Of a stretch of 64,000 bases of DNA, positions 35,633 through 57,696 are shown in pieces. Positions within the stretch are counted from its first letter, which is position 1. Each line of letters begins with the position of its first letter. Source of the DNA: Planctomycetota bacterium (GTDB lineage Bacteria > Planctomycetota > Planctomycetia > Gemmatales > Gemmataceae). A program made the translations under genes and the position numbers. The notes under the pieces were generated by a model that did no database searches, was not told where the DNA came from, and was given only the letters and a program-made list of their open reading frames with translations. The DNA lies in the NCBI GenBank assembly GCA_021413735.1, contig JAIOPV010000118.1:1-64000 (forward strand), in the 5' to 3' direction.

Positions 35633-36925
35633 TCAGTTCCTCCCGACGGGTGCGGTGATTGCGGGGCGAGGTGTGGTGGCGGGCCGTGCCGCCGGAGCAG
35701 TCGTGGTGCTCGCGGTGCCGCCGTGCAGCAACCCATCCTGAAATTCCGGGTAGCCGACTTCCGCGTGTTCCGCATAATCGAGTCCGCGCTGTTCATCGAC
35801 GCTGCCGACTCGAAGTTGCATCCAGCTTCCGATCGCTCGGTACATGATGTAGGCCGTCGGAAACACGAAGATAAACGCGGTGGCGGAACCGAGTAACTGA
35901 ATGCACATCTGGCGAAGGTCCGTCCCGCTTTCCTTGAAGATGCCCACGGCGAGAGTTCCCCAGACGCCACAGAATCCGTGAACCGGGATCGCTCCAACAG
36001 CATCGTCGATCTTGAATGCATCAAGGAACGCTTCGCCTAGCATCATCACGGGCGTGGCAATGAGCCCGATCAGAATCGCTGAACCTGGCGTGATAAACGC
36101 ACACCCGGCCGTGACTGCCACCAACCCACCGAGGCTTCCGTTCACAATCGTCGTGAGCAAAACCGGCTTGCCAAGGACCCCGCACAGGATGAGAGTTGAA
36201 ACTACGGCTGCACATCCTGCGAGGTGCGTGTTCAGTGCGATCTTCCCAATGCTGATGTCTGCTGAGGTGGTGCTTCCCGCGTTGAACCCGAACCAACCGA
36301 GCCACAGCACGAATCCGCCGAGTGCAACGAAGGGCAAGTTGTGACCGGGGATCGGTCGCGGTGTGCCGTCCTTCGCGTATCGCCCGGTGCGCGGCCCGAG
36401 TGCAGCCAACCCCGCGAGGGCACAACACGCACCGACCGTGTGGACGACCGTGGAGCCTGCGAAGTCGATAAACCCGAGTTGCTTCAGCCATCCGTTGTCG
36501 TTCCAGGCCCACGACCCGTAAATCGGGTAGATCAACGTGGTGATGAGGAATGACCCAACCAGATAGGCGTTGAATCGAATTCGCTCGGCCAGCGCTCCGC
36601 TGACAATCGTTGCCGCTGTTGCCGCGAACATCATCTGGAAGAACAGCAGCGTGTATTCGAACGGTTCGCCCGTGTTCACTGCGAACTTGGTTGTGCCATA
36701 CCAGCCGGATGAACTGAGGCCGAACATGACCCCATACCCGACTGCCCAGAACCCCAGAGCTCCAACACACATATCGCAATAATTCTTCATGATGACGTTG
36801 ATGGCGTTCTTCGCCCGGACCATTCCGCTCTCAACGAGCGCGAACCCCGCTTGCATGAAGAACACCAATATCGCTGCTGTCACCACCCAAAGGGTGTTCA
36901 GCAAAACCTGGACTTCTGGCGTCAT
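35633..36925 (-). CDS. amt: ammonium transporter (Amt family)
   Basis: A 430-aa membrane protein with about eleven hydrophobic segments. Amt hallmarks are visible: FFMQAGFALVESGMVRAKN near residue 22, NDNGWLKQLGFIDFAGSTVVH near 145 (with the first conserved pore His after FAGS), FNAGSTTSADISI near 220 and IPVHGFCGVWG near 312 carrying the second pore His region. The C-terminal tail (about residues 375-430) is cytosolic and rich in Ala, Pro and Thr. Its ATG overlaps the double-CheW gene stop (ATGA), which ties its expression to the chemosensory operon instead of to a glnK/PII gene; no PII gene is nearby. Confidence 0.95.
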   Translation of the reverse strand: MTPEVQVLLNTLWVVTAAILVFFMQAGFALVESGMVRAKNAINVIMKNYCDMCVGALGFWAVGYGVMFGLSSSGWYGTTKFAVNTGEPFEYTLLFFQMMFAATAATIVSGALAERIRFNAYLVGSFLITTLIYPIYGSWAWNDNGWLKQLGFIDFAGSTVVHTVGACCALAGLAALGPRTGRYAKDGTPRPIPGHNLPFVALGGFVLWLGWFGFNAGSTTSADISIGKIALNTHLAGCAAVVSTLILCGVLGKPVLLTTIVNGSLGGLVAVTAGCAFITPGSAILIGLIATPVMMLGEAFLDAFKIDDAVGAIPVHGFCGVWGTLAVGIFKESGTDLRQMCIQLLGSATAFIFVFPTAYIMYRAIGSWMQLRVGSVDEQRGLDYAEHAEVGYPEFQDGLLHGGTASTTTAPAARPATTPRPAITAPVGRN

Positions 36926-37971
36926 CTGGTTGCACCTCTCCGTTGTGTGAAAAGCAAGTCCGACCGACCCATTGCGGGATCTGGTTCGGTTTGGGGAGAA
37001 ACGCTGGAGAGGTTGCGTTCCGGACCCGAGGATTGGGCGGTCTCTGGCGAGAGCCGTGCGAGATCAATGAGCGCGATTGTCTGGTCGCCGACTTCAACTG
37101 GCATCACGATTTGCTCGGGATCGCCAGGGAAGGCTCGTTCCGAAGCGAGGTTCGGGATGGGCAGTTTCAGAATCCGCACGCCGCGAGGAATCAGCAGCCC
37201 AATCGGTTCAGCGCTGCCTGGCGAAGCAACCACGGCAACCAAGGACTTCCCCGCTTCAAGTGGTTGTAGACCGAGCCACGCACACAGATCGAGCACGCCA
37301 ATCACCTGATCTCGCCACGGCATGACACCTGTCACGAACGCTGGTGTTCCGGGCACCGGCTTGAATTGCCGCGATTCGACCAACTCCGCGACGAGCGCTG
37401 CTGGCAGCCCAATGCCCCACGCTCGTTCCGCCTCAATTGCGGCAGGTAACGGAATCACCATCAAGCGATCCCGCGATGTGGCAGAGATTCGATGAGGCCA
37501 CGGATTGCTTTGTGGCAATTCGCGGCTCGACCGACCCGTGAAGATCGAGTCCAGATCGAGCCACGGAATAATGTCCGAGTCTATGCGAACGACCGCCGGA
37601 AAATGTTGCGACTGCACCACAGCAGGCATTCGCAGAAAGCTCGCGGACGTAACGATTGTCCCCTGCGATGACTGATTGACCAGCACACCGACCGGTCCGC
37701 TCGGAGTATCGAGGAGGAGCAATTGTGAACCGTGTTGTTCGCCGGTCTCGGAGAAGCCGAGGAGCCCGGCCAAACTGAACACGGGGATATCGCTGGTTCG
37801 CGTTGGCAGCGAACCGACCTGCGGCCATTGATCGACGACCGGCGCGACCTGATCCGCGCGTTCGATGCCACGCACGGACGAAAGGTCGAGCGAGATCCAG
37901 AAATCCCGAACACGGCACTGCGATACTCGGGATTGCTTTGTTTCAACGAGAGCCATGTTTACCTTGGTCAC
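36922..37971 (-). CDS. double CheW-domain protein
   Basis: A 349-aa protein with two CheW-like domains, about residues 20-160 (DFWISLDLSSVRGIE, IPVFSLAGLLGF, GPVGVLVNQSSQG) and 190-330 (LPAALVAELVESR, FVTGVMPWRDQVIGVLDL, EPIGLLIPRGV). CheW domains link receptors to CheA. The GTG start overlaps the CheA stop by GTGA; an ATG at 37956 with AAGG upstream is the alternative and would shorten the protein by five residues. Second adaptor of the operon, next to the ammonium transporter. Confidence 0.82.
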   Translation of the reverse strand: MTKVNMALVETKQSRVSQCRVRDFWISLDLSSVRGIERADQVAPVVDQWPQVGSLPTRTSDIPVFSLAGLLGFSETGEQHGSQLLLLDTPSGPVGVLVNQSSQGTIVTSASFLRMPAVVQSQHFPAVVRIDSDIIPWLDLDSIFTGRSSRELPQSNPWPHRISATSRDRLMVIPLPAAIEAERAWGIGLPAALVAELVESRQFKPVPGTPAFVTGVMPWRDQVIGVLDLCAWLGLQPLEAGKSLVAVVASPGSAEPIGLLIPRGVRILKLPIPNLASERAFPGDPEQIVMPVEVGDQTIALIDLARLSPETAQSSGPERNLSSVSPQTEPDPAMGRSDLLFTQRRGATR

Positions 37972-40364
37972 GCTGGAACAGGAGCCGAGGCCGCTTCACG
38001 GAGAACGCGGAGCAACTCGGCAGGTTGATACGGCTTCACGAGGTAGGCCGTCGCACCGAGTTCCATTGCCTTGCTGCGGTGTTTATCGCCTGCTCGCGAT
38101 GTCAGCATCACCACGGGTATGTGACGGTGAGCGGGGTTCGCTCGAATCGTCGAGAGCAGTTCGTAGCCGTCCATTCGCGGCATTTCGACATCGAGCAACA
38201 CGACGTCCGGCAAGCGCTCGGTGTGGTGAAGCACATCGAGAGCATCGAGTCCGTCTTTCGCGGTGTGCGCATTCAATCCAGCGTCACGCAACTGCCCAGC
38301 CACGAACCGCCGAACACTTGGCGAATCGTCCACCACCAACACGAGCAACTGTTCGGACAGAGCGGTTCGAGCCGCCTGTGTGCGAGAAGGTGTTGCGAGA
38401 TTCGGACGAGCGGCACGAACCGGGATGCACAGTTCGGTTGGATCGAGAATCAGCACGACGGAACCATCGCCCATCAGAGTCGCACCCGCGATTCCGGGGG
38501 CGTGGCGAACGTGTGTTCCCAGCGACTTCACAACCACTTCACGACCACCCACGATTCGGTCGAGGACCACCACATAGCGTCGATCCGCGACGTTCACGAC
38601 AACCGCCGGGGGACGCGGCGATTGCTCGCTTGCGCCTCGCAAACTCAGCCGCTTGGCCAGCGTGAACATCGGTAGCGTTTCGTCGCCCAACCGCACGACA
38701 TCCTGCCCGCCGATCTTGCTGCACTGCTCAGGATCGAGCCTCAGAATCTGTGTGATCGATCCCAGCGGCAACGCGAATGTCTGCCCTTCCGCATCCACCA
38801 TCAGCGCCCGGATGACGGCGAGCGTCAGCGGCAATCGCACAGTGAACGTCGTTCCTTCGCCGGGTGTTGACGCCAGCGAAACGGTGCCCTTCAACCGTTC
38901 GACCATCACCTTGACGATGTCTAACCCCACGCCGCGACCGGAAATCTCACTGACTTGCTGTGCCGTGCTGAACCCTGTTTGGAAGAGGAGATCTCGGAGT
39001 TCTTCGGGAGCGGCGATCGCAGCGGCTTCGGCCGAGAGGAACCCGCGTGCCACAGCGACAACCCGAATCGCTTCGGTATCAATGCCGCGTCCATCGTCGC
39101 TGACGCGAATCACGATCTGCGTGCTTTCGTGCGACGCCTGCACGCGGATCGTTCCAGTTGCGGGCTTGCCGGCAACTTCGCGAGTTGCGGCGTCCTCGAT
39201 TCCGTGGTCGATGGCGTTCCGCAGCAAGTGCAAGAGCGGTTCGCTCATCTCGTCGAGAACGGTTTTGTCGAGGTCTGTGCTCTCACCTTCCAGCACGAGG
39301 CGAACTTGCTTGCCAAGACCGTTAGCCGTGTGGCGAACCGTGCGGTGCAAGCGGCTCGACAGGTGGGCCAGCGGGACCATCCGGACCCGCATCAGTTTGT
39401 CTTGCATTTCCCCCGTGAGTCGCGATTGGCGCACGAGGTAGCCATCAAACTCGCCGGTCAGTCCGGAAAGCTCTTGCGACACCGTAATGATGTCGGTCGA
39501 GGTTTCGGCCAGTTCGCGGATCATCAGGTGGAAGTCGGTGTAGCGGTCGAATTCCAACCCGTCGAAGCCGTGTGTCGTGGTGTGCGACCCGATGCGATTC
39601 GTGAGTCGATTGCTTCCAAGCGCGCGGGCTTCGTACTGAGTTTCGAGCTTGCTCGTCGCACGCCGCAACCGCTCGGCGCTGAGTTCGAGTTCCTGAAAGA
39701 GCCGGCTCAGTTTGCCGAGTTGTTGCTCAAAACCCGATCGGCTGATGACGAGTTCGCCGACGAGGTTCACCACCTCGTCGATGCGTGCGATGGGGACACG
39801 CAAACCTTCGCCAGCGGCCCGCACTGCGGCCGCATCGGTGGCAACCGACGGTGGTTCGCTCGCGACCGGAACGACGATTCTTGGTTCATCGTTTTGTGTC
39901 GCAGGAGCGGAACTGCCAGAAACCCGAGCAGCTTCAACTGCCGCGAGGAATCGCGGAGAAAGCTCAGCGACGAGTGCCTCCCCTGCCCGACCTGCGGCGA
40001 GGTCTTCAAGTGCATCGTGAGCATCAAACAGCAGGCTAATTTCATTCGGGTTCGCCGAGCGTGCGTTCTCGAACAGCACATCGAGCAAATCTTCGGCGCG
40101 ATGTGCAAGCGTCGCGATCTGCGGGAACCCGACCGATGCCGCTGCACCTTTCAGTGTGTGGGCAGCGCGGCGAATCTCCTGCAAGTATTCCTTGTTCGCC
40201 GGTTGCTGTTGGTACAGTGGCAGCGTGCGACCAAGGACCGCGAGGTGTTCCTCGGCTTCCGCAGTGAACACTTCGAGAATCTCGGGCGAGATCGCCGCGA
40301 ACGCGTCGGGGGCGTCTCCGAACGTAGGGAACTCGGGTTCGTCGGCGTCATTCGGCAAAGACAT
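37968..40364 (-). CDS. cheA: CheA-type hybrid histidine kinase with C-terminal receiver
   Basis: A 798-aa protein: N-terminal Hpt domain with the phosphorylatable His69 in RRAAHTLKGAAASVG, helical dimerisation region (about 190-320), HATPase domain (LLHLLRNAIDHGIED N-box, SDDGRGIDTEAI, GRGVGLDIVKVM, TPGEGTTF; about 340-525), CheW-like domain (about 530-660) and a receiver (about 680-798: VLVVDDSPSVRRF, VVLLDVEMPRMDGYE, VVMLTSRAGD, YLVKPYQP). No P2 domain for CheY docking is obvious. CheA-REC hybrids occur in Pil-Chp, Frz and cyanobacterial Tax systems that run surface motility or other outputs rather than flagella. Confidence 0.93.
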   Translation of the reverse strand: MSLPNDADEPEFPTFGDAPDAFAAISPEILEVFTAEAEEHLAVLGRTLPLYQQQPANKEYLQEIRRAAHTLKGAAASVGFPQIATLAHRAEDLLDVLFENARSANPNEISLLFDAHDALEDLAAGRAGEALVAELSPRFLAAVEAARVSGSSAPATQNDEPRIVVPVASEPPSVATDAAAVRAAGEGLRVPIARIDEVVNLVGELVISRSGFEQQLGKLSRLFQELELSAERLRRATSKLETQYEARALGSNRLTNRIGSHTTTHGFDGLEFDRYTDFHLMIRELAETSTDIITVSQELSGLTGEFDGYLVRQSRLTGEMQDKLMRVRMVPLAHLSSRLHRTVRHTANGLGKQVRLVLEGESTDLDKTVLDEMSEPLLHLLRNAIDHGIEDAATREVAGKPATGTIRVQASHESTQIVIRVSDDGRGIDTEAIRVVAVARGFLSAEAAAIAAPEELRDLLFQTGFSTAQQVSEISGRGVGLDIVKVMVERLKGTVSLASTPGEGTTFTVRLPLTLAVIRALMVDAEGQTFALPLGSITQILRLDPEQCSKIGGQDVVRLGDETLPMFTLAKRLSLRGASEQSPRPPAVVVNVADRRYVVVLDRIVGGREVVVKSLGTHVRHAPGIAGATLMGDGSVVLILDPTELCIPVRAARPNLATPSRTQAARTALSEQLLVLVVDDSPSVRRFVAGQLRDAGLNAHTAKDGLDALDVLHHTERLPDVVLLDVEMPRMDGYELLSTIRANPAHRHIPVVMLTSRAGDKHRSKAMELGATAYLVKPYQPAELLRVLREAASAPVPA

Positions 40365-40420: not shown

Positions 40421-42754
40421 TCACGTTCCCGCGACCATGCGACCGCCACCCACGACGACCGGAACAGCTTTGCCATTCGCACGACCCGACCACTTGGCGT
40501 TCGTGTCGTATCCATTCAGCTCGACTTTCGGAGCGGGTGCCCCGGGCAACCGGAAGGTTGCAACCGACTCCCGAAGACCATCCGCGAGACTCGCAAGTCC
40601 CTGCACCGCGTCGGCCGCTTGCTTCGTGCCGGTTGCGGTATCCTGCGTGATGCTCGAAATCTCGATCATCGCTTCCGTGACACCTTCCGACGCCCGAGCT
40701 TGCTGCGTCGCCGCGTGAGAAATCTGCTGGATCAGTTCGGCGAGCTTGTTCGACACACCCTCAATCTCGTCGAGCGCCTGACCGGCTTGCCCCGCGAGTT
40801 TCGACCCCTCGACGACTTCCTGAATACCCTTTTCCATCGCACCGACCGCTTCGTTCGTTTCGCTTTGAATCGACTTCACCAGCGCCGCGATCTTCTTGGT
40901 CGCCTCTGTGGAGCGGTCGGCCAACCGCTCGACTTCTTCAGCAACCACCGCGAAACCGCGGCCGGCCTCGCCTGCCATCGCAGCCTGGATGGAAGCGTTG
41001 AGCGCGAGAATACTCGTTCGATCCGCGATGTCGTCGATGAGTTGCGTGATCTGTCCAATCTCCTGGCTCGACTCGCCGAGCCGCTTGATACGCTTGGCGG
41101 TTTCTTGCACCTGATCTCGAATGCGGTCCATACCCGTAATCGTGTTCTTCACGGACACGTTACCTTGACGGGCATTCTGGAGAGCTTGGCGAGCAACAGT
41201 CGCGGACTGGGCGGCGTTGTCGGAAACCTGGTGAATCGAGACCGACATTGCTTCAACGGCCTTCGATGTCGTGGCAATCTTGACGGCTTGTTGTTCGGCA
41301 CCGCCAGCGAGTTGTTGCGTCGAAGTATAGATGTCGCCGGCAGACCCGGTCACTTCGATCGTGGCGCGTTGCACGCTGCCGATAACCCCGCGAAGTTGAT
41401 CGAGCATGTAGTTGAACGAGTCGGCGATGGCACCCGTCACGTCGGCGGTCACTTCGGCTTCCTTGGTGAGATCGCCTTCCGCGACGCCAGCCACTTCTTC
41501 GAGTAACCGCTGAATCGACGTCTGAATCTGGTCGCGTTCTTCCTGCGATTGCATCAGGCTCAGGGTGTTGTCGAGCATCGCGTTCAGCGTGAAGGCGAGG
41601 TCGCCGAGTTCATCCTGCGACGTGACCGTTGCGCGAGCGTTCACGTTCCCGATGCCAATCTCGGCGAGCACGCCCTTGACTTCGCCGAGTTGCTGAGTGA
41701 TGCCACTCGCGATGCCGTACACGAGCGCACTGGCGAGAAGCAGCACGATCACGATGAACACGGCGGTGCCATAGAGTCGCGTCGAGAACACCTCGTAACG
41801 TGCCGTCAACATGCTGCGAAGTACGGGCATGTCTTCGTCGTTGACCTTCTGATACGCGGCGAGGGCGTTTGATCCCTTCTCCCAAACGTCGGCGGGCGGA
41901 ACGGTGATCGCGGCTTTCTCCTCGACAGTGGGCGCTTCCACGAACTTGGTCTGAACCAGAGTAACGAACGCATCAGCGGCAGCGGTGGCTTCGGCGAACT
42001 TCGGAGCGAGCTTGTTGTAAGCGTTCGCGTCGCGGTCCTTGAGGATCGTCACGTTGCCGTCGTAGTTCGATCGTGCTGCCGCGACCTGTCCGAGAAGTTG
42101 CGAGAGCTTGTACCGATCTTGGAGCGTGATCTCTTTCTTTGCAGCAATTTCGAGGGCGAGGGCGCGTGTCTGGCCCACGAAATCGATCAACGATGTGGTT
42201 CGCAGCGTCAAGTTGTCTTGCAGGTAGTACGTAACGAGAATCGGGTCGAGAATCAGGTTGGACTTTTCACTCACCGCGACTTGGATTGTTGCCAGATCGG
42301 TGAGGATTTTCGTGTGACGCTCGGCAGCATCCTCGGGCTTCATGTCGGTCGCACGATCCGCGAGCGAAGCCCAATCCGACTTCACTTTTTTCCACTGCTC
42401 GCTCGTGCCGAACAGCGATCCGCTCTTCGCGTCGGCTGCGTCTTCGACCTTGATGGCTTCATCAATCCGGTTGCGGCTCTCCGCGAGTCGCGAGCGGAAA
42501 TACGCCTTCTCTGTTTGATCGCCTCGCACGGAGGCGTCCACCATTGTGCGGTAAGCAGTGATCTGGTCGTTGAGTTTGTTCAACGGTTCGATGTGGTCGA
42601 GGCCGTTCAGTTCTGCCTTGAGGAACCCGCCATCGTAGCTGAGGGCGCTAATGTAAAAGCCCGCCAGTGCAACCGCGGGTAGACCAAGCGCAAGCGCGAT
42701 GACCACCAGCTTCTGCCACATCTTTATCAGAGTGAACCGTTCAACCAGTCTCAT
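40421..42754 (-). CDS. methyl-accepting chemotaxis-type transducer
   Basis: A 777-aa receptor. TM1 at about residues 15-37 (LVVIALALGLPAVALAGFYI), a roughly 290-residue helical periplasmic sensor with no known small-molecule pocket motif, TM2 at about 326-350 (TAVFIVIVLLLASALVYGIA), HAMP at about 350-405, then a long cytoplasmic signalling coil whose hairpin tip reads EVERLADRSTEATKKI and IQAAMAGEAGRGFAVVAEE (about 590-615). GGAG precedes the ATG. Same operon as CheA and CheW proteins. No CheR or CheB is encoded in the window, so methylation-based adaptation is not assured. Confidence 0.93.
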   Translation of the reverse strand: MRLVERFTLIKMWQKLVVIALALGLPAVALAGFYISALSYDGGFLKAELNGLDHIEPLNKLNDQITAYRTMVDASVRGDQTEKAYFRSRLAESRNRIDEAIKVEDAADAKSGSLFGTSEQWKKVKSDWASLADRATDMKPEDAAERHTKILTDLATIQVAVSEKSNLILDPILVTYYLQDNLTLRTTSLIDFVGQTRALALEIAAKKEITLQDRYKLSQLLGQVAAARSNYDGNVTILKDRDANAYNKLAPKFAEATAAADAFVTLVQTKFVEAPTVEEKAAITVPPADVWEKGSNALAAYQKVNDEDMPVLRSMLTARYEVFSTRLYGTAVFIVIVLLLASALVYGIASGITQQLGEVKGVLAEIGIGNVNARATVTSQDELGDLAFTLNAMLDNTLSLMQSQEERDQIQTSIQRLLEEVAGVAEGDLTKEAEVTADVTGAIADSFNYMLDQLRGVIGSVQRATIEVTGSAGDIYTSTQQLAGGAEQQAVKIATTSKAVEAMSVSIHQVSDNAAQSATVARQALQNARQGNVSVKNTITGMDRIRDQVQETAKRIKRLGESSQEIGQITQLIDDIADRTSILALNASIQAAMAGEAGRGFAVVAEEVERLADRSTEATKKIAALVKSIQSETNEAVGAMEKGIQEVVEGSKLAGQAGQALDEIEGVSNKLAELIQQISHAATQQARASEGVTEAMIEISSITQDTATGTKQAADAVQGLASLADGLRESVATFRLPGAPAPKVELNGYDTNAKWSGRANGKAVPVVVGGGRMVAGT

Positions 42755-42981: not shown

Positions 42982-44685
42982 TCACGCCGATCCGAAAGGA
43001 AGGAATTCGGGCGAGAGCAGGAGCCGATCAGGAACAAGCACAACGACCTGTCGCCGATCCATTCCGGCAACTCCCGCCATGTACGCGGAACAGCGAGCCA
43101 CAATTGGGGCGGCCGGCATTCGAACCTCATCAGGCGGAATCGCACGAATGCCGCGAACTCGGTCCACGAGAAGTCCAGCTGACAAATCCCCACCGGGAGC
43201 GGTCACGACCATCAGGCGGCGATCCTGTCCAGGCATGCCGGGTTCCTCGTCGAGAAACGCTCGCATGTCCACCATCGAAACGATGCCGCCGCGGATATTC
43301 GCAACTCCAACCAACCAATCAGGCGAACCCGGCAGCGGAGTCGACACCGGCGGCCGACCAATCTCACGGACCGAGTTCAGCGGGAACGCATACTCGGTGT
43401 CGGCCACCGCGAAGACGACGTAGGAGTGTTCCGGGTTTCGTTGCGTTGTGGCGGTCGGCGCTGCGGCTGCGTCGGCCACGGCACTTTGCGGATCGAACGC
43501 CACTTCCTGCACGAATCGTTCGAGAATGCTGTGGCTATCGGCGGCGCTGAGTTCGGCCTTGGCTCGCAACTCAGCCCGACACTCCCCGACCGTGTCCTCA
43601 GCAACCGCCGCGAAGTCTTCGGTTCCGGGCAGCGTGGGTCGAAGCGTCAACGGCAACTCGAACGCGGCACCGGCTTCAATCCGATCCGTTTGTGCGAACA
43701 CGACTCGCGAGAGTGCGTCGAAACCTTCCGGTTCAGGAGTGATGTTCCAACCAGTTGGGATCGTCACGCGAAGTCCAACCATGCGTGCGGGAGCAGCCCC
43801 TTCGTTCCGCACGATGACCCTTAATGCGTGATCCTGATTCACACGCCACTGCGTTGGTCCGTCGAATGTTACTGCCAGTTTTGGGATCGTGACGGCACAC
43901 GCGACCTCAACCGCTTCCGTAACCTCCGGGTTTGCCGTTACAACCCCACGCAGACCACCCGCACCCGGAAGCCGTCCGGCTACCTGAACCGTGGAGGTCG
44001 TCTCGCCTTGTACTGGGATTACGCCGAACGCAACGACTTCTTCACTGAGAACCGCGAGTCCGTCGGTCGCGGAAATCCGAACCTCGACATTGCGAAGCGG
44101 ACACGTCCCGGTGTTCCGAACTTTCAGCGTGAACGCAGCTCCTGCACCGACCTCCACACCGTCTGGCCCTGCGAACTCCAGCGTTACCGCAGGACGCACA
44201 AGGGGAACATCGACACTCGTTCGCGTCGTGTAGCTGGTCCGGAACGTGGCCTGTCCGTGATCGGACCAATCCGCTGCGTTGGTCGCCACCGCCTTGATTC
44301 GGATAGGAATTTTCGTGCCAATCGCGGCTTTCCCGAACTTCCAGATCAGCGTGCGGGCTCGCGATGTGGTGATCGCGGGATCGGTGGCAAGGACCTTGAG
44401 ACCAGCGGGAATGTCGTGTTCGACCTGCACGTCGCTCGCCGCGACTCTTGATCCAAGCGTGACGACGGCTCCATACAGGAATGGCTCGCCCGTCGTCTGC
44501 GTGACCGGAGGACGTGGACTAACAACAGACGGTGGAGGAACGGGAGCGGGAATTGCGATGGCCGGAGGTGGATCAGCTTCAACAGGGGCGAGCATCCCGC
44601 TGAGGTCCGGAGCTTCAGGTGATTCGTCGGCACCCATCCATTCGGGCAAGCCGTCCGAATCGTCCGCAGGATCAGTAGGTGGCAT
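42982..44685 (-). CDS. CheW domain protein with N-terminal DUF11/CARDB-like repeats
   Basis: A 567-aa protein of unusual make-up. After a Pro-rich acidic start (residues 1-65) come three or so immunoglobulin-like beta domains of DUF11/CARDB type: VTLGSRVAASDVQVEHDIP, FTLKVRNTGTCPLRNVEVR and LRVIVRNEGAAPARMVGLR, each with the NxG plus LxxVxV pattern (about 65-400). The C-terminal 150 residues are a CheW domain (SYVVFAVADTEYAFPL, WLVGVANIRGGIVSMVDMR, GLLVDRVRGIRAIP). No signal peptide or membrane segment is seen, so the beta repeats, normally extracellular, would be cytoplasmic. The gene lies between the CheY-like regulator and the MCP. Confidence 0.8.
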   Translation of the reverse strand: MPPTDPADDSDGLPEWMGADESPEAPDLSGMLAPVEADPPPAIAIPAPVPPPSVVSPRPPVTQTTGEPFLYGAVVTLGSRVAASDVQVEHDIPAGLKVLATDPAITTSRARTLIWKFGKAAIGTKIPIRIKAVATNAADWSDHGQATFRTSYTTRTSVDVPLVRPAVTLEFAGPDGVEVGAGAAFTLKVRNTGTCPLRNVEVRISATDGLAVLSEEVVAFGVIPVQGETTSTVQVAGRLPGAGGLRGVVTANPEVTEAVEVACAVTIPKLAVTFDGPTQWRVNQDHALRVIVRNEGAAPARMVGLRVTIPTGWNITPEPEGFDALSRVVFAQTDRIEAGAAFELPLTLRPTLPGTEDFAAVAEDTVGECRAELRAKAELSAADSHSILERFVQEVAFDPQSAVADAAAAPTATTQRNPEHSYVVFAVADTEYAFPLNSVREIGRPPVSTPLPGSPDWLVGVANIRGGIVSMVDMRAFLDEEPGMPGQDRRLMVVTAPGGDLSAGLLVDRVRGIRAIPPDEVRMPAAPIVARCSAYMAGVAGMDRRQVVVLVPDRLLLSPEFLPFGSA

Positions 44686-44712: not shown

Positions 44713-45075
44713 TCACAGTAACCCGCCGAGGACAGAGAGCAGTTCCGCCTCGGCGAAGGGTTTGGTCATGTAGCCATCGGCTCCCTGCTTGAGCCCCCAG
44801 AAGCGATCGCTGTCCTGGGATTTGCTGGTGAGTAGGACAATCTTGATTCCTTGAGTACCCGGTGCCGTCTTCAATTGCCGACACACTTGAAACCCGTTCT
44901 TTCGTGGAAGTACGACATCAAGGAGGATCAAATCCGGTTGCTCGGCAGCGGCTTTCGCCAGCGCATCTTCTCCATCGATCGCAGTGATGACGCGATAGCC
45001 GTTGCTCAGAAGCGCGTTGCTGACGAGCTTCAATTCCGTCGGGCTGTCGTCCACGACGAGGATTGTCCGGGACAT
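44713..45075 (-). CDS. CheY-like single-domain response regulator
   Basis: A 120-aa receiver. ATG 45075 is chosen because the receiver begins right there (SRTILVVDDSPTELK); the open frame reaches to 45279 but the extra part is not receiver-like. Acidic pocket DD at 9-10, phosphoacceptor Asp in LILLDVVLPRKNGF (about residue 53), Thr in VLLTSKSQ and Lys in YMTKPF. No output domain. Likely phosphorylated by the CheA in the same operon. Confidence 0.88.
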   Translation of the reverse strand: MSRTILVVDDSPTELKLVSNALLSNGYRVITAIDGEDALAKAAAEQPDLILLDVVLPRKNGFQVCRQLKTAPGTQGIKIVLLTSKSQDSDRFWGLKQGADGYMTKPFAEAELLSVLGGLL

Positions 45076-45124: not shown

Positions 45125-45691
45125 TCAATCTGGCAGGTCGCGAATTTGCGTGTTGAATTCACCGAGGAAACCGCTCGCGGCTTCGACCCAAGTGCGAGCG
45201 GCCACCGACGACGGAAACGCTCCGGTGAACAATGCGAAGTACGCCGAGAGAGTCTCGAACGCGGCGAGCAGACACGCACGAATCTGCGGCCCGACGCTGT
45301 CGTCGCGGTTCGTGACCGCCGACCAGATGGATTTGAACACGCCGGTTGGCGCGGCTTGTCGCGCTTCGTGCGTTGCCATCAGAAACGCGCCGGCTTTCGC
45401 GAGCGCATCGGCTTGCAACGCATTCAGATTGTCCGGAAGGTTCACCGCCGTCGCCACCGCCTCACACTCCGCGATCATGCCTTCGATCGCATCAAGGATG
45501 GGTTTCACGTTTCCGCGAACCCGCTCAGGGATGCGACCACGACGCGCTTCGAGATCCGACAACAGAGTCACGAGTGCGGTGATCCACTCTTCGGCAGAGA
45601 AGGTCGGCTCTGGCGGCGATGGTGGTTCTGGTTGTGGGTTGTCCACGGGCGCATCGTCGGGTCTGCGGTGAATTTTCAAGGCAGAGGTCAT
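45125..45691 (-). CDS. hypothetical helical protein in the chemosensory operon
   Basis: A 188-aa protein of unknown family. After a Pro-rich start (residues 10-30) it is almost all helix: EEWITALVTLLSDLEARR, VKPILDAIEGMIAECEAVA, AFETLSAYFALFTGAF. It sits 34 bp behind the TPR-response regulator and 49 bp ahead of the CheY-like gene on the same strand, so it likely belongs to the pathway. No catalytic motif (CheC/CheX/CheZ/CheR) was recognised; a structural or phosphatase-like role cannot be ruled in or out. Confidence 0.65.
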   Translation of the reverse strand: MTSALKIHRRPDDAPVDNPQPEPPSPPEPTFSAEEWITALVTLLSDLEARRGRIPERVRGNVKPILDAIEGMIAECEAVATAVNLPDNLNALQADALAKAGAFLMATHEARQAAPTGVFKSIWSAVTNRDDSVGPQIRACLLAAFETLSAYFALFTGAFPSSVAARTWVEAASGFLGEFNTQIRDLPD

Positions 45692-45725: not shown

Positions 45726-46691
45726 TCAGACTTTCACAGCAGGGCAGTGTTTGCGCACGGCTGCCAACAAAGCATCGGGCTGGAGAGGTTTTGAGAGGTA
45801 GGCATTCGTTCCCGCGAGCCGACCGCGAATCTTGTCGAAGAATCCATCCTTTCCAGTGAGCATGATGACTGGAACCTTCTGGGTATCGGGATTCCGTCGA
45901 ACGAGTCGGCAGAGTTCGTAGCCATCCATTCCCGGCATTGCCACATCAAGCAGGATCAGTGTCGGAACGCCAATTTCTCGAATTCGGTCGAGCGCGGTCG
46001 ATCCATCCTCGGCTTCGATGACTCGGAAGCCAGCGGCGGTCATGGTCATGGCAACCAGTTTTCGGATCGTGCGGCTATCGTCGACAATCAGAACTGTTTC
46101 CTGCGGCGGGGTTCTCCGATTTTCCAGCCGGGGGACGATTTTTGTGTCAGTTTTCGCCGCGCTGACAGTCGGTGCATCGCTCAGCGCCTGTTTCGGAGCC
46201 TGTTCTGCGGGCGGTGCTGCTGCGAGTTTTGCGCGATAATGAAGCACGCCCCGTTTCGCAGCCGCGTTCTCGGGGTTAATCTCCAGCGCTCGCCCAAGGT
46301 GCGCGAGAGCTTCTGTTGGGGACTCTGCCACACTTGCGAGCCACACCCATGCAGTTTCGTTGCGTGGTTCGTTGGCGATCACGGAACGGAGCAACCGTCG
46401 AGCGGTCTGTGGGTCTTTCGCCTTCACGGCGGCGATGCCCGCTTGCAAGCGAGCCGGTCCGAGAGCAGCCTTCGCCTTCTCGTTATTTGGGTTTAACGCA
46501 AGGATCGACTCCAAAGCGCGACACGCTTCAGCAGGCGATTCCGCAACTCCAGCAAGCCATTGCCAGGCGGTTTCGTTTCGGGGATCGAGTCTCGTCGCCT
46601 CGAGCAAGAGGAGGCGGGTGCGTGGCTTATCGTTCGCTCGAACCGCGATGGTGGCTTCCCGAAGCAAGTCGATCACATTCGGGTTAGTCAT
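45726..46691 (-). CDS. TPR-response regulator fusion
   Basis: A 321-aa protein. ATG 46691 with AGGAAGG upstream is preferred to an earlier start at 46715. Residues about 5-160 form TPR-like helical repeats, two of which are nearly identical (DPRNETAWQWLAGVAESP and EPRNETAWVWLASVAESP). An Ala/Pro linker precedes the receiver (about 195-315): VLIVDDSRTIRKLV, LILLDVAMPGMDGYEL, VIMLTGKDGF, YLSKPLQP. It would couple phosphorylation by CheA to protein-protein contacts through the TPRs, similar in logic to PatA/TaxP-type regulators. Confidence 0.88.
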   Translation of the reverse strand: MTNPNVIDLLREATIAVRANDKPRTRLLLLEATRLDPRNETAWQWLAGVAESPAEACRALESILALNPNNEKAKAALGPARLQAGIAAVKAKDPQTARRLLRSVIANEPRNETAWVWLASVAESPTEALAHLGRALEINPENAAAKRGVLHYRAKLAAAPPAEQAPKQALSDAPTVSAAKTDTKIVPRLENRRTPPQETVLIVDDSRTIRKLVAMTMTAAGFRVIEAEDGSTALDRIREIGVPTLILLDVAMPGMDGYELCRLVRRNPDTQKVPVIMLTGKDGFFDKIRGRLAGTNAYLSKPLQPDALLAAVRKHCPAVKV

Positions 46692-46969: not shown

Positions 46970-48295
46970 TCACCGTGAGAAGGTCGCGGCGGCGGTCCGT
47001 TCTGCGACGAAAGATTGTGAGGCTGGAATCAGCAGGTCTTGCAGCGTTTCTCGTGTGATGTGCGGGGTCTCAGGTGCTACCACCACCAACGCGGGAAAAC
47101 GAAGTGCCTGATTCAAACGACCGGCTAAGCCGGCGAGAGAATCGACATCGACTGACTCAATTTCCCGTTGGAGAGTTTCGGTCGGTATTGCGTGACCGAA
47201 ATACAACTCTTGCGTCACGAGTCGGCTGAAAAGTGTCGAGGCATCCTGTCCGCCGAGCAGATGCTGCCCGCGGAGTTGCATCTTCGCCCGCCACAGTTCT
47301 TCGGTGGTGATAGGGTCTGTTCCACTGGCCAGAGCACACAGACTATCCCACGACAATGAGACAACTTTCATTAAATCTTCAGGAGCGGTCGCGCCTTCGA
47401 TCACGAGCAAACCCGCGTCGGCATACGCCTGATATTCCGCAGCGATGTGGAAGGCCAATCCGCGTGTTTCGCGAACATCACGGAACAACCTCGAACTGAT
47501 CCCACCACCGAGGATCGTCGTGAGAAGATGCCAGCCGTATCGATCGGGACTGGCGTAGACCGGCGCAGGGATCGCGAGAGCAAAATAGGCTTGGTTCACC
47601 GGGTGCGTTTTCACCACGACGCCGCCGCGATATTGCGGACGCGGGCACTGTCGCGGACCGGCCTGACCGATCATTCGCCAGAAGCCGTCTCGCACTTGCG
47701 CGACGAAATCATCGTGATCGACACCACCCGCCGCCGCCACGATGAGACGATCCGGCAGATACGTGCGATGCGTGAAGTAGATCACATCTTCGCGGGTGAG
47801 TTTGCTCACCGTATCGGGCTGTCCCGCCACGGGGCGACCCAGCGGATGATCCGGCCACACGAGCGATTTCAGGCAGTCGTTGACCAACCGATCGGGTTGG
47901 TCCGCCAGTGTCGCGAGTTCGCGCCCAATAGCACCTCGTTGAGCGGCAACGCATTCTTCCGGGAAGGTGGAATTGAGGAGCAAATCACCAAACAGATCAA
48001 GGACGTAGGGGGCGTATTCATCAAGAACTGTGGCGGCGTAGCACGTGTAATCCCGCGTGATGAAACCTCCAACCTGCCCACCAAGGCTGTCGATCAAGCG
48101 AGCGATTGCAAGTCCATCGCGATTACTGGTGCCTTCAAACATGAGGTGTTCGGTCAAATGCGCAAGCCCGGCCATCTCGATCGGTTCGTCCCTTGGACCA
48201 ACGTCGAGTAGCGCACCAATCGCGCAAGATCGAAGACCTGGAATGGTGTGGGTCACGACCCGAACACCATTTTCAAGTGTCGCAGTTCGGTACAT
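46970..48295 (-). CDS. M16 (insulinase) family zinc peptidase
   Basis: A 441-aa single M16 protein, the length of mitochondrial-processing-peptidase/PqqL-type subunits. The inverted zinc motif HLTEHLMFEGT (HxxEH; about residues 46-56) is intact, and the third ligand Glu is likely in GAIGRELATLADQ about 75 residues on. The C-terminal half carries the second M16 domain (VVVKTHPVNQAYFALAI; ILGGGISSRLFRDVRETRG). No signal peptide. It heads the minus-strand array that includes the chemosensory genes; a link in function is not evident. Confidence 0.9.
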   Translation of the reverse strand: MYRTATLENGVRVVTHTIPGLRSCAIGALLDVGPRDEPIEMAGLAHLTEHLMFEGTSNRDGLAIARLIDSLGGQVGGFITRDYTCYAATVLDEYAPYVLDLFGDLLLNSTFPEECVAAQRGAIGRELATLADQPDRLVNDCLKSLVWPDHPLGRPVAGQPDTVSKLTREDVIYFTHRTYLPDRLIVAAAGGVDHDDFVAQVRDGFWRMIGQAGPRQCPRPQYRGGVVVKTHPVNQAYFALAIPAPVYASPDRYGWHLLTTILGGGISSRLFRDVRETRGLAFHIAAEYQAYADAGLLVIEGATAPEDLMKVVSLSWDSLCALASGTDPITTEELWRAKMQLRGQHLLGGQDASTLFSRLVTQELYFGHAIPTETLQREIESVDVDSLAGLAGRLNQALRFPALVVVAPETPHITRETLQDLLIPASQSFVAERTAAATFSR

Positions 48296-48717: not shown

Positions 48718-50679
48718 TTACTTCCCCTTGGCGTCTTTCAAGGCAGTCTCAAGGAACAACTTTACCTCATCGAGTTTCGCCGGGTCGTTCGCACGGAAGA
48801 GTTCGTGTTCCGGTTCGTCCAGCGGTGGCATGTCCTTGTCCACGCCAACCCGTTGCAGCAGTCGGGTCAGAACTTCCTGTTGCCGGAACCGATCGGCCCC
48901 CTTCAACCACGCCTCGCGAGACTTCTTGTCGAACGGGTCGAAGGCCAACGCCGGAAGGGGTTCAGCAAATCGTGCCCGCCCTTCGCCGCGCACCTCGTGA
49001 CAACGCAAGCATGCGGTCGTGGGGATCACCCGGGGTTCCACTTCGGCCTTCCCCTGAGATGGAGCAAAGACCGAACTCGAAGCGTACTGCTCGCGGTTGG
49101 GCGCGAAACCCGCTGGAATCCCATGCGTCTCTCGCAACACCTCGTCGAGCCCCTTCACAAACCGATCCTTGAAATCCTCTCGATCGGGAAGGATGCCCCC
49201 TTCGAGCGCGTCCTGAAAGCTCGGCCCCTCGAACACTTGCCGGGCAAGCGTTGCCACGACGACCTTCGGCTTGTTCACACGCTTGGCAGCGTCGATCAGG
49301 GACTTCGCGAGGAACGCCCGATCACCTTCACTGAGCCCGATCGATCGTGCCAGCGACGCCGTGCTCACGATCTGCGAAGGCTGAATGGGAGCCTTCACCG
49401 GGAGTCGAAGGAAAGCATTCGGGTTGCTCGGTTGTGCCCTGCTGACGAGGCCATGATCTCCGAGGATGCGGCCGACGTCGTATTTTCCGACCAATTCGGC
49501 GCTGCCGCTCCAAGCTCCCCCGCCGTTGCCGACCGATCCCGCCGGGCTGAAATCCAGGAGTACACTCGACTTCTCCGCCTTGCGGATGGTAACCCAATCC
49601 GACGCGAGCGTCGGGAACTGGCGAGCGAGCAGATTGTTCGCCTCGACAGCCGTGTCGCGGTCGATCTTCTCCAGAGTACCCGCTGAGGTGATGCCGACGA
49701 GGAGCGCTACCAGCGCCTTGCGGCCCTGCACGTCGCGACTGAGTAAACGGAACCCCTCGCGGTTCAGAGAAAGGCTCGCACCCATCCGCACGGCCGCGTC
49801 CACCTCGGGAGCCTGTGCCGTGAACAGAGCCATGCCGTCGATTCGGTCTTGAGGCCCGAAACGCGGGACTCCTGTCGCCGGGAGGAAGGCAAGTTCCGTG
49901 GCTCGTCGCACGACGTCGTTGTGAGTCGTGTTCGACCACGGGCCGTTGCCGAGAATCGGCCCACGGTTCTTGTGGCAACTGAAGCAACGGACTCCATCCA
50001 GCACCCGGATCTGCGGGTCACCGCCGACGTCCTCGATCACGCCGAAGTCGAACTTCATCCGGCGTGGGTTCCACGAGATGAACTCGATTGATCGAACCTG
50101 CGGGGCACCGATGACAGGTTTCTCCATGTTGACCGCGAGGAACAGTCGGCCGTTGAGGTTGGGGCGGTTCGGTGCGGTGGTACTCAGTGGCCCGACTTTC
50201 GACGTGACAAGGACCCGTGGGTTCGCAAGCCCCGATTCAAGCGACACTGCCGAGAACGGCACCGGGAGTTGAACGAAGTCGCCGAGTTGAGCGAGCGTCT
50301 GCTGAAGCTGCGTTCCGGTTGCGGGAATCTTCCCGCCGTTGGCGGTGATGACGGCGGTAAGGGCACTGGCTTCGTCGAGCGGCGTTTCGAGCTTCGGAGC
50401 AGCCTTCACGACAGGCCCCTTGAGCTGCGCCGCCAGCCGGCGAGCCTCAGACTGAGCCGTCTGCATGATCGCAGCCGCCTCTTGCCGTACTGCCGTCTGA
50501 TCCTTGGCCGAGTACCCGGCCTGGGGACCGTTGCCGTAGCCGCCACCAAGGGCTCCCTTGCCTCCACCGGGCGGTCCCTTCCCTCCGAAGGGTGGCGGCC
50601 CTTGCGGGAATCCGTCGCCGTTCAGTCCGACCATTGTGCCGACCGCCAGCGCGGCCGCGACCCACCATCGAGTTGCCAT
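48718..50679 (-). CDS. secreted cytochrome c-like protein with two CxxCH haem sites
   Basis: A 653-aa exported protein. ATG 50679 opens the signal peptide (ATRWWVAAALAVGTMVGLNG); a TTG four codons upstream is less likely. After a Gly/Pro-rich linker (GGKGPPGGGKGALGGGYG) the body has two haem-binding motifs: CFSCHKNRGPILGN (about residue 238) and CLRCHEVRGEGRARF (about 545). The C-terminal segment is like the Planctomycete cytochrome domains. Likely a periplasmic electron carrier or oxidase-like partner of the haem dehydrogenases this lineage uses. No catalytic motif other than haem sites was recognised. Confidence 0.83.
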   Translation of the reverse strand: MATRWWVAAALAVGTMVGLNGDGFPQGPPPFGGKGPPGGGKGALGGGYGNGPQAGYSAKDQTAVRQEAAAIMQTAQSEARRLAAQLKGPVVKAAPKLETPLDEASALTAVITANGGKIPATGTQLQQTLAQLGDFVQLPVPFSAVSLESGLANPRVLVTSKVGPLSTTAPNRPNLNGRLFLAVNMEKPVIGAPQVRSIEFISWNPRRMKFDFGVIEDVGGDPQIRVLDGVRCFSCHKNRGPILGNGPWSNTTHNDVVRRATELAFLPATGVPRFGPQDRIDGMALFTAQAPEVDAAVRMGASLSLNREGFRLLSRDVQGRKALVALLVGITSAGTLEKIDRDTAVEANNLLARQFPTLASDWVTIRKAEKSSVLLDFSPAGSVGNGGGAWSGSAELVGKYDVGRILGDHGLVSRAQPSNPNAFLRLPVKAPIQPSQIVSTASLARSIGLSEGDRAFLAKSLIDAAKRVNKPKVVVATLARQVFEGPSFQDALEGGILPDREDFKDRFVKGLDEVLRETHGIPAGFAPNREQYASSSVFAPSQGKAEVEPRVIPTTACLRCHEVRGEGRARFAEPLPALAFDPFDKKSREAWLKGADRFRQQEVLTRLLQRVGVDKDMPPLDEPEHELFRANDPAKLDEVKLFLETALKDAKGK

Positions 50680-50791
50680 GCGATGCCTCAAAATCGAGTT
50701 TGGACGTGGTGACCGGAAGACGCATCATTCGAGAGACGTGGTACGGGTTGGGGTCGCCCAGAAGACGAAACCCCAACTTCGCGGACATTCC

Positions 50792-52996: not shown

Positions 52997-55900
52997 TCAG
53001 ATGCCGTCGATGGTGATGCCACCAGTGACGATGCGCAGCGAGAAGCCGCTGGTCTGCACGGCGCCCGTCAACGGAGCGAGATAGACCAAACCCGACGATG
53101 CACTTTCGGTTAGCAGAGCAATGTTCTGTTGTGCCCCGGTTGCTGCGACGTGTGTGATGGCGTGATCCTTCACCGCCGTGCCCGTGAGATATGTTCCCGC
53201 ATCCGGCCCCGTGCTGGCGATCGTGATTGCACCCTTGGAAGCCGCCGGATCAACGAAGTACACGCCAACGCGAACCTGCTGATTGGTGGTACTGGTCAGC
53301 GGGTCGAGTGCCGAGAACACCAACTCTTCCTTGCCGTCGCCGTTGGAGTCCACGAACGCCACGCGGCCATCGCGGTTGATGCCACTTGCTGCCCCCGTTA
53401 GTCCTGCGAACGGTGCAAACGCTGTCGTGCTGTCCGCGTTGAGCGGTAACTCTGTGAGAGTTGTTCCCTTCAGTTGAAGCACCTTCACTTTAATCTGTTG
53501 AACGGCGGGATCGGGGCTATTGACTGGTCCGCCGCGAGTCACCGCGATCTCGTCACCGCCAAGTCCATCGACGTTCCCGGCCGCTACAACCACACCCTTC
53601 TGGTAACCCGGACCGAACGGCGTCCTGATGCCACCGAGGATGTTGTTGCTGCCGGCAGGCGAAGTCCCGTCGATCACGACCAACCGACCAAACTCCTTCC
53701 GGCCAACCGTGTCGTTGCCACCACGAGTGCCCGCGATCAGATCAACATGCGTGTCGCCGTCGATATCACCAACCGCAATGTTCAGGCCATTCGTGTAGGG
53801 TCCATCCGTGCCATTGGGGCCGTCGTGGTTCGCGAACGGCGTGAACGTGTGAATCAGTGTCAGCGTCCCCTTGGCAAGTGCTGCCCCGTCGTACACGAAT
53901 GCCTTACCGGCGTGGTCTGCCGTCAGACCCAACACCCCAGCAGGATTCGCTGCGGCAACCACGAGATCGGGAACCGCGTCCCCGCTGAAGTCACCGAGAG
54001 CAACCGAGACGAGGCCCGTGTACCCCGCGATGGGCGTCGCAGTCGCGATGAGGCCACCGGTCTTGTCCAGGAGCCGAACGGTGCCGTCCGCTCCACCAAT
54101 TGCAAAGGCTGCGGTCGTGGTTGGTGTCCCGTTGGACACGCTGAACGTGGTGCTTGGTCCGGCGGCGAGAGCGAGGTTGCCGGCCGTGTCGCTGGCGGTA
54201 CCGGCAGCGATCGAAATGCCCAACGTGCCAGAACCCGTGATGTTGCTGATGGTAACCGTTTTCGAGAGCCCAGCACCGCCGCTCACTGTGACCGTGCCGT
54301 TAGCGGTTCCCGTCTGGTTCAGCGTGATGTCGGCTGCCGTCAGCGTGTTCTTGTTGAAGTTCTTGTCGGCGAAGAGGATCGTGTAGGTGATTGGTCCCGT
54401 GGCCGTGGTGGTGGCTGACGGATTGCTGATCGTGACTGTCGGTTTCGTCGTGTCAATGAGCAGGTTCACGCTGTTTGCAAGCGAATGGCTCGTGGGAATC
54501 ACGAGTGCAACCGTGTTGCCGGAGATGTCCTTCAGCGTGCCGCCGCTGACGATGAGGCTCGTCGAGTCAAGCGACTGGGTGTTCTGACCGGGCGCGACGG
54601 TATAGGTGCCTGTCGCGTGTGTGGAATTGCTGAACGGCGAAATCGTGACGCTGTCGCCAACATTGAGGTTGACTGTGAGTGTGCCGGTGAGGGTCACAGG
54701 CTTGTCGAAGTTCACAGTCACGCTGATCGTGTCGCCCGCCTTGTACTTCCCGCTGGGTGTCGCCGACGTGATGCTCGTGATTCTGGCGGGGTTGTCGACG
54801 GGGATGAAGTACGTGAACAGGTCGGCTGGCGATGTCGCTGTTGTGCCGCCGGGTATCGTGACAGTCACATCAACGACGCCGACGGGAGCGGCAGGACTCT
54901 GAGCAATGATTGTCGTATCCGAGACAACCGTGAAGGTTGCTGGGCGTCCGCCGAAGTTTACCGCAGTTGCACCGGTGAACCCCGTTCCAGTGATCGTGAC
55001 CGTCGTCCCACCCGAAACCAGGCCGAAGGCAGGATCGATACTCGTGATGGTTGGGGCGGCTTCAAACGCGCCGATGTCCACACTCGGACCGACAATTCGC
55101 GAAAACCCAGGGCCACGCTGATCCGTTGTCCCGATGGCAAGGGCGTTATTTCCTGCGTTGATCGCGATGCTGCCGGGCAGCAAGGCGTAGGTGAGCGTAC
55201 CGCCGCCATTATCCTGGAGCGAGCCGAGAGCAAGCTGGGCAGCAGTGACACCGATTGTGTCGCTGCCGACGAAGCCAGTGGCGCTTCCCTGGTCGCCGAT
55301 CAAGTTGTTGCCGTTGCTGTCGAAGAAGCCTGAGACATCAGCATCGGTGGCAGCCGTGTTGAGGGCGACGATGCTGTTGCCCAAGACGGGATCACCGGAG
55401 CATCCGCAGCTGAAGATACCGCCACCCTCGGCAATCCCGGTGCTGCCGGCAATGCCGTCGCTGCCACCGCCCGTGGCGATGCCAGCGGTGCCGGCGGCGC
55501 CAGCGACGATGCTGTTGCCTGTGACGGTGAGGTTGGTGAAGGTGCCAGCAACGGTGGTGTAAATGCCGCCGCCAGCGACGTCGCTGCCGTCGCCGGCATC
55601 GCCGCCGTCGGCAGGATTAGCGCCAGTGCCCGCGTTGCCGCCGTTGCCACCGGCGCCGCCAACAATCGTATTGGCCCCGATCGTGCTGTTACTGATGCCG
55701 AGCGTCGTGCCGCCCAAAACAAGCAAACCGCCACCCCAGGCGTATGTGCCGCAGCCGCAACCGCCGTACCCCCCGTTGCCGCCCTGAGCGGTGCCGTAAC
55801 CTCCCTCGCCCCCAGCTCCGCCAGCGGCCATGATGTTCGTGTTTCCGGAAATCGAGCTATTCCGGATCGTCATGGTGCCGACACCAAGCGCCGCGATCCC

Positions 55901-57244: not shown

Positions 57245-57696
57245 GAGAAGTCTCCGCTGTTCACCCAAGAGCCGACCCCGTTCGAGCCGATGCGCAGCCT
57301 CATTGGCTGTTTCGTCTTTCCGGTCGAACTAATCGTGGAGTTTGTGGCCTTCTGCCACGGAATGTGCGTCCACAGTTGACAAAACCCACGCAAGCGGCCC
57401 AAGTTATCAAGGCTATGCCGCTCAGGTGTCCAAAGCAAGAATGGACTGGGACACGACTTTTCGCGCCGGGCTGTCACTTGGTTCCGGCTCGCATTTGGGC
57501 CTTCTGACGCGTAACAGCGGAGCACTCCGTCGCAAGGTATTCGTGCTCATTGTGATGCATCAGGAAGCTGTATTCTGATACTCATTCTTCCGGACATATG
57601 AAACGGTTCTGGGAAGGGGTGTGCATCTCGCCCGGAACCGATGAGAAACGCGAGGATAGCTTGACTCCACGAAAACGTTGGATCCGCAATCCCTTC
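57245..57696. other. intergenic region with GGTTCCGG-type words
   Basis: No gene is seen. TTCCGGA (57588-57594), GGTTCTGG (57605-57612) and CCGGAACC (57632-57639) repeat the arrangement found at 6355-6428. This stretch holds the upstream region of the giant surface protein on the minus strand. Confidence 0.45.

Follow-up and report, generated by a model that had tools for sequence, protein, structure and literature searches.

The window analysed here, the whole 64,000-nucleotide stretch (positions 1 to 64,000 of contig JAIOPV010000118.1) from a Gemmataceae bacterium, G000 in our genome set, carries a minus-strand gene series in the order M16 peptidase, TPR-REC, a 188-aa protein of unassigned family, REC, Ig-CheW, MCP, CheA-REC and 2xCheW. 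The TPR-REC response regulator (45726–46691, likely start at 46691; Pfam TPR and Response_reg) occupies a PilG-like position, and the single REC response regulator (44713–45075; Pfam Response_reg; 65–93% identity in relatives) a PilH-like one. The Ig-CheW gene (42982–44685) begins 27 bases past the stop codon of the preceding REC gene and is separated by 227 bases from the MCP gene (40421–42754; TM, HAMP and MCPsignal, by Pfam), the product of which retains a periplasmic region. They are followed by a CheA-REC hybrid kinase (37968–40364; Hpt, H-kinase_dim, HATPase, CheW and REC) and, in a ChpC-like position, by the 2xCheW protein (36922–37971; two CheW stretches in Pfam), the gene of which shares 4 bases with the end of the CheA gene. 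CheR and CheB are absent from the chemosensory cluster in the window.

The 188-aa protein (45125–45691, minus strand) gives no match in Pfam or NCBIfam; in four relatives a homologue is encoded at the corresponding place in the operon, with 63–71% identity in two and 25–28% in the other two. The M16 peptidase gene (46970–48295, minus strand) precedes the chemosensory operon here and also in G008, G035 and, as a partial match, G013. Also on the minus strand, the window encodes a 657-aa protein (48718–50691) that has no Pfam match at E 0.001 but contains CxxCH-type haem motifs (CFSCH, CLRCH) and probably a signal peptide, and a 1423-aa likely surface protein (52997–57268) with IPT/TIG and FG-GAP repeats.

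The fusion gene extends from the ATG at 44685 to the stop at 42982 on the minus strand and comprises 567 codons, in agreement with the coordinates and strand of the preliminary description. The C-terminal CheW domain (residues 418–567, 42985–43434) is matched by PF01584 over residues 422–556 (E 7.8e-27, 94 bits against a cut-off of 23.5). It forms the C-terminal end of the protein, and no CheR match was found by Pfam. The preceding part had been described as about three DUF11/CARDB-like repeats. The DUF11 assignment holds (PF01345, E 7.3e-9; best stretch 62–140, 36.4 bits against 24.6) and a second family, NPCBM_assoc/NEW3 (PF10633), is recognised at residues 284–321 (E 4.5e-8, 33.6 bits against 24.4), but the CARDB half of the label does not stand for the window copy, in which PF07705 remains below its cut-off (15.0 against 22.7 bits); the latter is reached only in the relatives at loci L111 and L039.

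The AlphaFold model was built on an alignment of eight sequences (the window copy and seven relatives), with a mean pLDDT of 72, compared with 38 from the single sequence. The predicted order is a disordered segment (1–65), three beta domains, a helix (381–395), a disordered linker and CheW. The N-terminal tail (residues 1–65, 44491–44685) is acidic and proline-rich in composition and predicted as disordered (pLDDT below 50). The three all-beta units agree with the number of repeats proposed earlier: Ig-like domain 1 (residues ~66–153, 44227–44490) is modelled as strands with pLDDT mostly between 61 and 84, and domains 2 (~165–268, 43882–44193) and 3 (~269–380, 43546–43881) reach pLDDT of ~90, which supports Ig folds and argues against a region devoid of them. 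In VIA-align comparisons, Ig2–Ig3 matches the tandem Ig-like barrels of factor XIII, alpha-2-macroglobulin-type proteins and integrins (Z ~13), and the CheW domain matches E. coli CheW in the core signalling unit (8c5v_E, Z 15.7); such matches of a predicted model indicate a common fold, not a common function. Averaged over the three closest copies, identity is 78% in the helix at the junction of Ig3 and CheW (43501–43545) and 20% in the linker after it. The pTM is low (0.37), and the relative placement of the domains, hence a rod shape, is not fixed by the model.

The absence of a signal peptide and of a membrane helix, as claimed initially, is borne out. In a 19-residue Kyte-Doolittle scan no transmembrane or hydrophobic segment was found in Ig-CheW, the peak mean being 1.34, compared with 2.79 for the neighbouring MCP. 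A missed signal peptide or a mis-called start is likewise excluded, because the reading frame is open for just three codons 5' of the ATG. These sequence features support a location of the Ig repeats on the cytoplasmic side. The same genome encodes a DUF11/Ig-repeat paralogue (contig C142, locus L002) with a tandem Ig module homologous to that of Ig-CheW (E 4.8e-39 by profile); it differs from Ig-CheW in its signal-peptide-like hydrophobic start, in further Ig sequence and in having no CheW domain.

Although a first scan of genome contigs with the single protein as query gave no match, the survey established that the fusion is present in 12 of 95 Gemmataceae genomes (G000, G002, G008, G013, G024, G026, G035, G068, G077, G081, G082 and G083), with identities down to ~20–25%; the copy of G068 is incomplete and runs off a contig end. 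A misassembly or a chance reading frame can be dismissed, because full-length copies are present in ten other genomes. All named matches belong to Gemmataceae, including Limnoglobus roseus PX52, and in profile searches of genome samples, 392 from across the phylum and 297 from across the class, no match spanning the Ig and CheW parts was obtained outside this family. A version of the operon with plain CheW outside the family was also considered and rejected; the sole MCP match (G340) lies in an unrelated neighbourhood.

The REC gene adjoins the fusion in every operon-type copy in which that side of the locus is intact, and the MCP gene does so in G000, G002, G008, G013, G024, G035, G068 and G077; besides the present genome, Ig-CheW holds the slot between REC and MCP in G002, G008, G013, G024, G035 and G077. 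The MCP of the operon (E <1e-60) is found in 11 of the 95 family genomes, each of which (11/11) also carries Ig-CheW; the Fisher p value of 1.5e-13 overstates the significance of this co-occurrence, as shared ancestry is ignored. In G081–G083 the MCP is encoded at a locus separate from Ig-CheW, and in G081 and G083 it lies beside CheA and 2xCheW and has only ~460 residues. In Limnoglobus roseus and a relative (L125:7858-9237 and L126:7350-8762), the system is split over two loci, and the shortened MCP (~460 residues) is without the large periplasmic sensor. The G026 copy (L039:9403-10971) is a distant DUF11-CheW fusion encoded next to a TPR protein, and it comes without the chemosensory operon, the MCP or an LPxWL motif. 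Since the fusion is kept together with its receptor, it is probably functional, as an undescribed variant of a component of pilus-type chemosensory arrays.

The complete chromosome of G002 shows the order TPR-REC, REC, Ig-CheW, MCP, CheR, CheA, CheB and 2xCheW. In P. aeruginosa the genes follow as pilG, pilH, pilI, pilJ, pilK, chpA, chpB and chpC, so that all eight of G002 are in the Pil-Chp order (CheY-CheY-CheW-MCP-CheR-CheA-CheB-CheW), and this match places Ig-CheW in the PilI position. The Pil-Chp system has two CheW-like linkers, PilI, which is essential for twitching, and ChpC, which is accessory (PMC12632253). G083 and G024 yielded no CheW-domain protein besides CheA, the terminal (2x)CheW protein and Ig-CheW; provided that no further one is missing from these draft genomes, the role of ordinary coupler must fall to Ig-CheW in them. 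E38, G57 and R62 of E. coli CheW, which we take to be coupling interface residues, correspond in an ungapped alignment to E441, G460 and R465 of Ig-CheW; across the fusions the G and R are invariant and the E nearly so. Taken at the level of sequence, the adaptor role is well supported. The CheA carries a C-terminal REC domain, with one Hpt stretch in the window and two in G002 and Limnoglobus. PilT-family matches occur in 95 of 95 family genomes and thus do not discriminate for a Pil-Chp assignment. A Pil-Chp-like system appears to be the best reading, on the basis of gene order rather than of a CheA tree.

Ig1 and CheW are separated by a nearly constant distance (351–367 residues in ten copies, most pairs of which are 20–30% identical), and the length of the N-terminal tail ranges from 54 to 243 residues. 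The Ig region changes faster than CheW (52–69% against 83% identity in close relatives), and Ig2 is the least conserved domain. Within the tail, a P-x-W-(L/M) motif (PEWM at residues 14–17 of the window copy, 44635–44646) is present in 10 of 10 operon-type copies with an intact N-terminus. By shuffling of the first 60 residues, it is expected in 2–5% per copy by chance, and it occurs within the first 60 residues of one of the ~166 other proteins called in these regions. The motif was spotted post hoc and some copies are close relatives, so that the ten amount to about seven independent cases.

In our reading, to which we assign a probability of roughly 55%, Ig-CheW fills the PilI position as the main CheW-type coupler of a Pil-Chp-like system and, by way of an Ig arm of fixed length, presents LPxW(L/M) to a partner. 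The domain make-up (by Pfam and NCBIfam), the cytoplasmic topology by sequence, the conservation, the operon position and the co-occurrence are results of the analysis; incorporation in the array, extension of the arm and partner binding are inferred, as follows. The C-terminal CheW domain would take its place in the array beside the tip of the MCP and the P5 domain of CheA, as suggested by the retained interface residues and the operon context. From there the helix and the short flexible linker would lead to a rod made up of three Ig-like domains in the cytoplasm, near-constant in length, which would project from the array and end in the disordered tail with the conserved motif. Such an arm would most likely act as an array-anchored tether that keeps a cytoplasmic partner near the kinase, candidate partners being the operon's own TPR-REC regulator or the pilus machinery. 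Points that speak against this reading are the faster change of the Ig region, for which no conserved surface patch emerged, the G026 copy with neither operon nor MCP nor motif, and the shortened MCP encoded at a separate locus in Limnoglobus and two relatives. The stricter proposal, that the rod on the PilI-type adaptor is rigid and that its LPxW(L/M) recruits the TPR-type response regulator or the pilus machinery to the array, is offered tentatively, at odds clearly below even.

An extended spacer or a scaffold in the array had been suggested at first. The spacer part gains some support, because the Ig1–CheW distance is nearly fixed despite identities of 20–30% and a variable tail; the arm may physically space or scaffold the array itself. 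The Ig repeats would then be a structural or array-shaping element in or below the CheA/CheW ring layer, where they would touch neighbours or fix how far apart array elements lie, and the tip would bind nothing specific. We regard it as possible but rather unlikely: a fixed three-domain length with poorly conserved sequence fits it, and CheWS of Treponema denticola is a precedent for a CheW fusion with its extra domain below the ring (PMC10653840), yet it leaves unexplained why LPxW(L/M) is kept in an otherwise unalignable tail. The motif, the PilI-like position and the inheritance together with the MCP within one family point to a tether or docking arm no less than to a passive spacer, and the preference for a docking arm over its rivals is drawn from the motif and the constant length, both purely sequence arguments.

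It is improbable that the arm is a sensory input module, binding a small molecule or a protein and signalling to CheA via CheW. For CheWS, a sensory role is proposed for the SAM-binding, CheR-like domain (PMC10653840), and with a Limnoglobus MCP lacking the large periplasmic sensor the input could come from elsewhere; however, the DUF11/NEW3 domains show no recognised ligand site, the MCP of the window still has its periplasmic region, and Ig2 is the least conserved domain.

That the arm is a neutral passenger, fused from a secreted DUF11 protein and with no function beyond the CheW domain, is very improbable. DUF11 Ig-repeat proteins are indeed widespread in the phylum, but the arm retains its three domains, the spacing between them and the tail motif across lineages only 20–30% identical, and such conservation of the arm already weakens this explanation. 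The Ig modules of the fusions, moreover, lie on one side of a single branch (support 91) that separates them from 33 Ig modules of other proteins, including secreted ones. This is compatible with one ancient origin of the fusion modules, within the limits set by long branches. In the CheW tree, 8 of 11 fusions group together (91/85) and three, two of them with long branches, are unplaced; a single clade of fusions is not rejected (p-AU 0.56).

CheW fusions as such are already known (CheV, CheWS and CheW-CZB), and 30 undescribed CheW architectures are counted in Pfam v35 in PMC10653840. No description of an Ig/DUF11-CheW protein was found in the literature searched, and it may be among those 30. 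A PilI-position adaptor with a conserved Ig arm would mean that CheW can serve as the route by which arrays acquire large appendages in the cytoplasm, which extends the idea put forward for CheWS (PMC10653840) to an unrelated fold, and it would place DUF11-type repeats, usually regarded as surface modules, in the cytoplasm. A docking arm built into CheW, if true, is not known to have been described for any CheW. Limnoglobus roseus PX52, with a complete genome, carries the fusion, which makes the proposal testable by imaging and, if the organism can be manipulated, by genetics.

In comparison with the Pil-Chp system of P. aeruginosa, Ig-CheW resembles PilI in its CheW domain and in being encoded after the REC genes and ahead of the MCP, and both clusters have a second CheW-type linker at the end, here 2xCheW. 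PilI, however, is an ordinary CheW, to which Ig-CheW adds an Ig arm and tail of ~400 residues; the PilG-like regulator is here a TPR-REC protein, and the CheA of the window has one Hpt stretch, not many. CheW, the adaptor between chemosensory receptors and their kinase, is usually seen as a minimal coupler of 150–170 residues. CheV, like Ig-CheW, joins a CheW domain to another domain, which in CheV is a REC domain, and there is none in Ig-CheW. In CheWS of T. denticola (PMC10653840), the CheW domain holds an additional cytoplasmic domain at the array, as it would in Ig-CheW; the added part is C-terminal, CheR-like and SAM-binding in CheWS, whereas in Ig-CheW it consists of unrelated, N-terminal Ig-like repeats.
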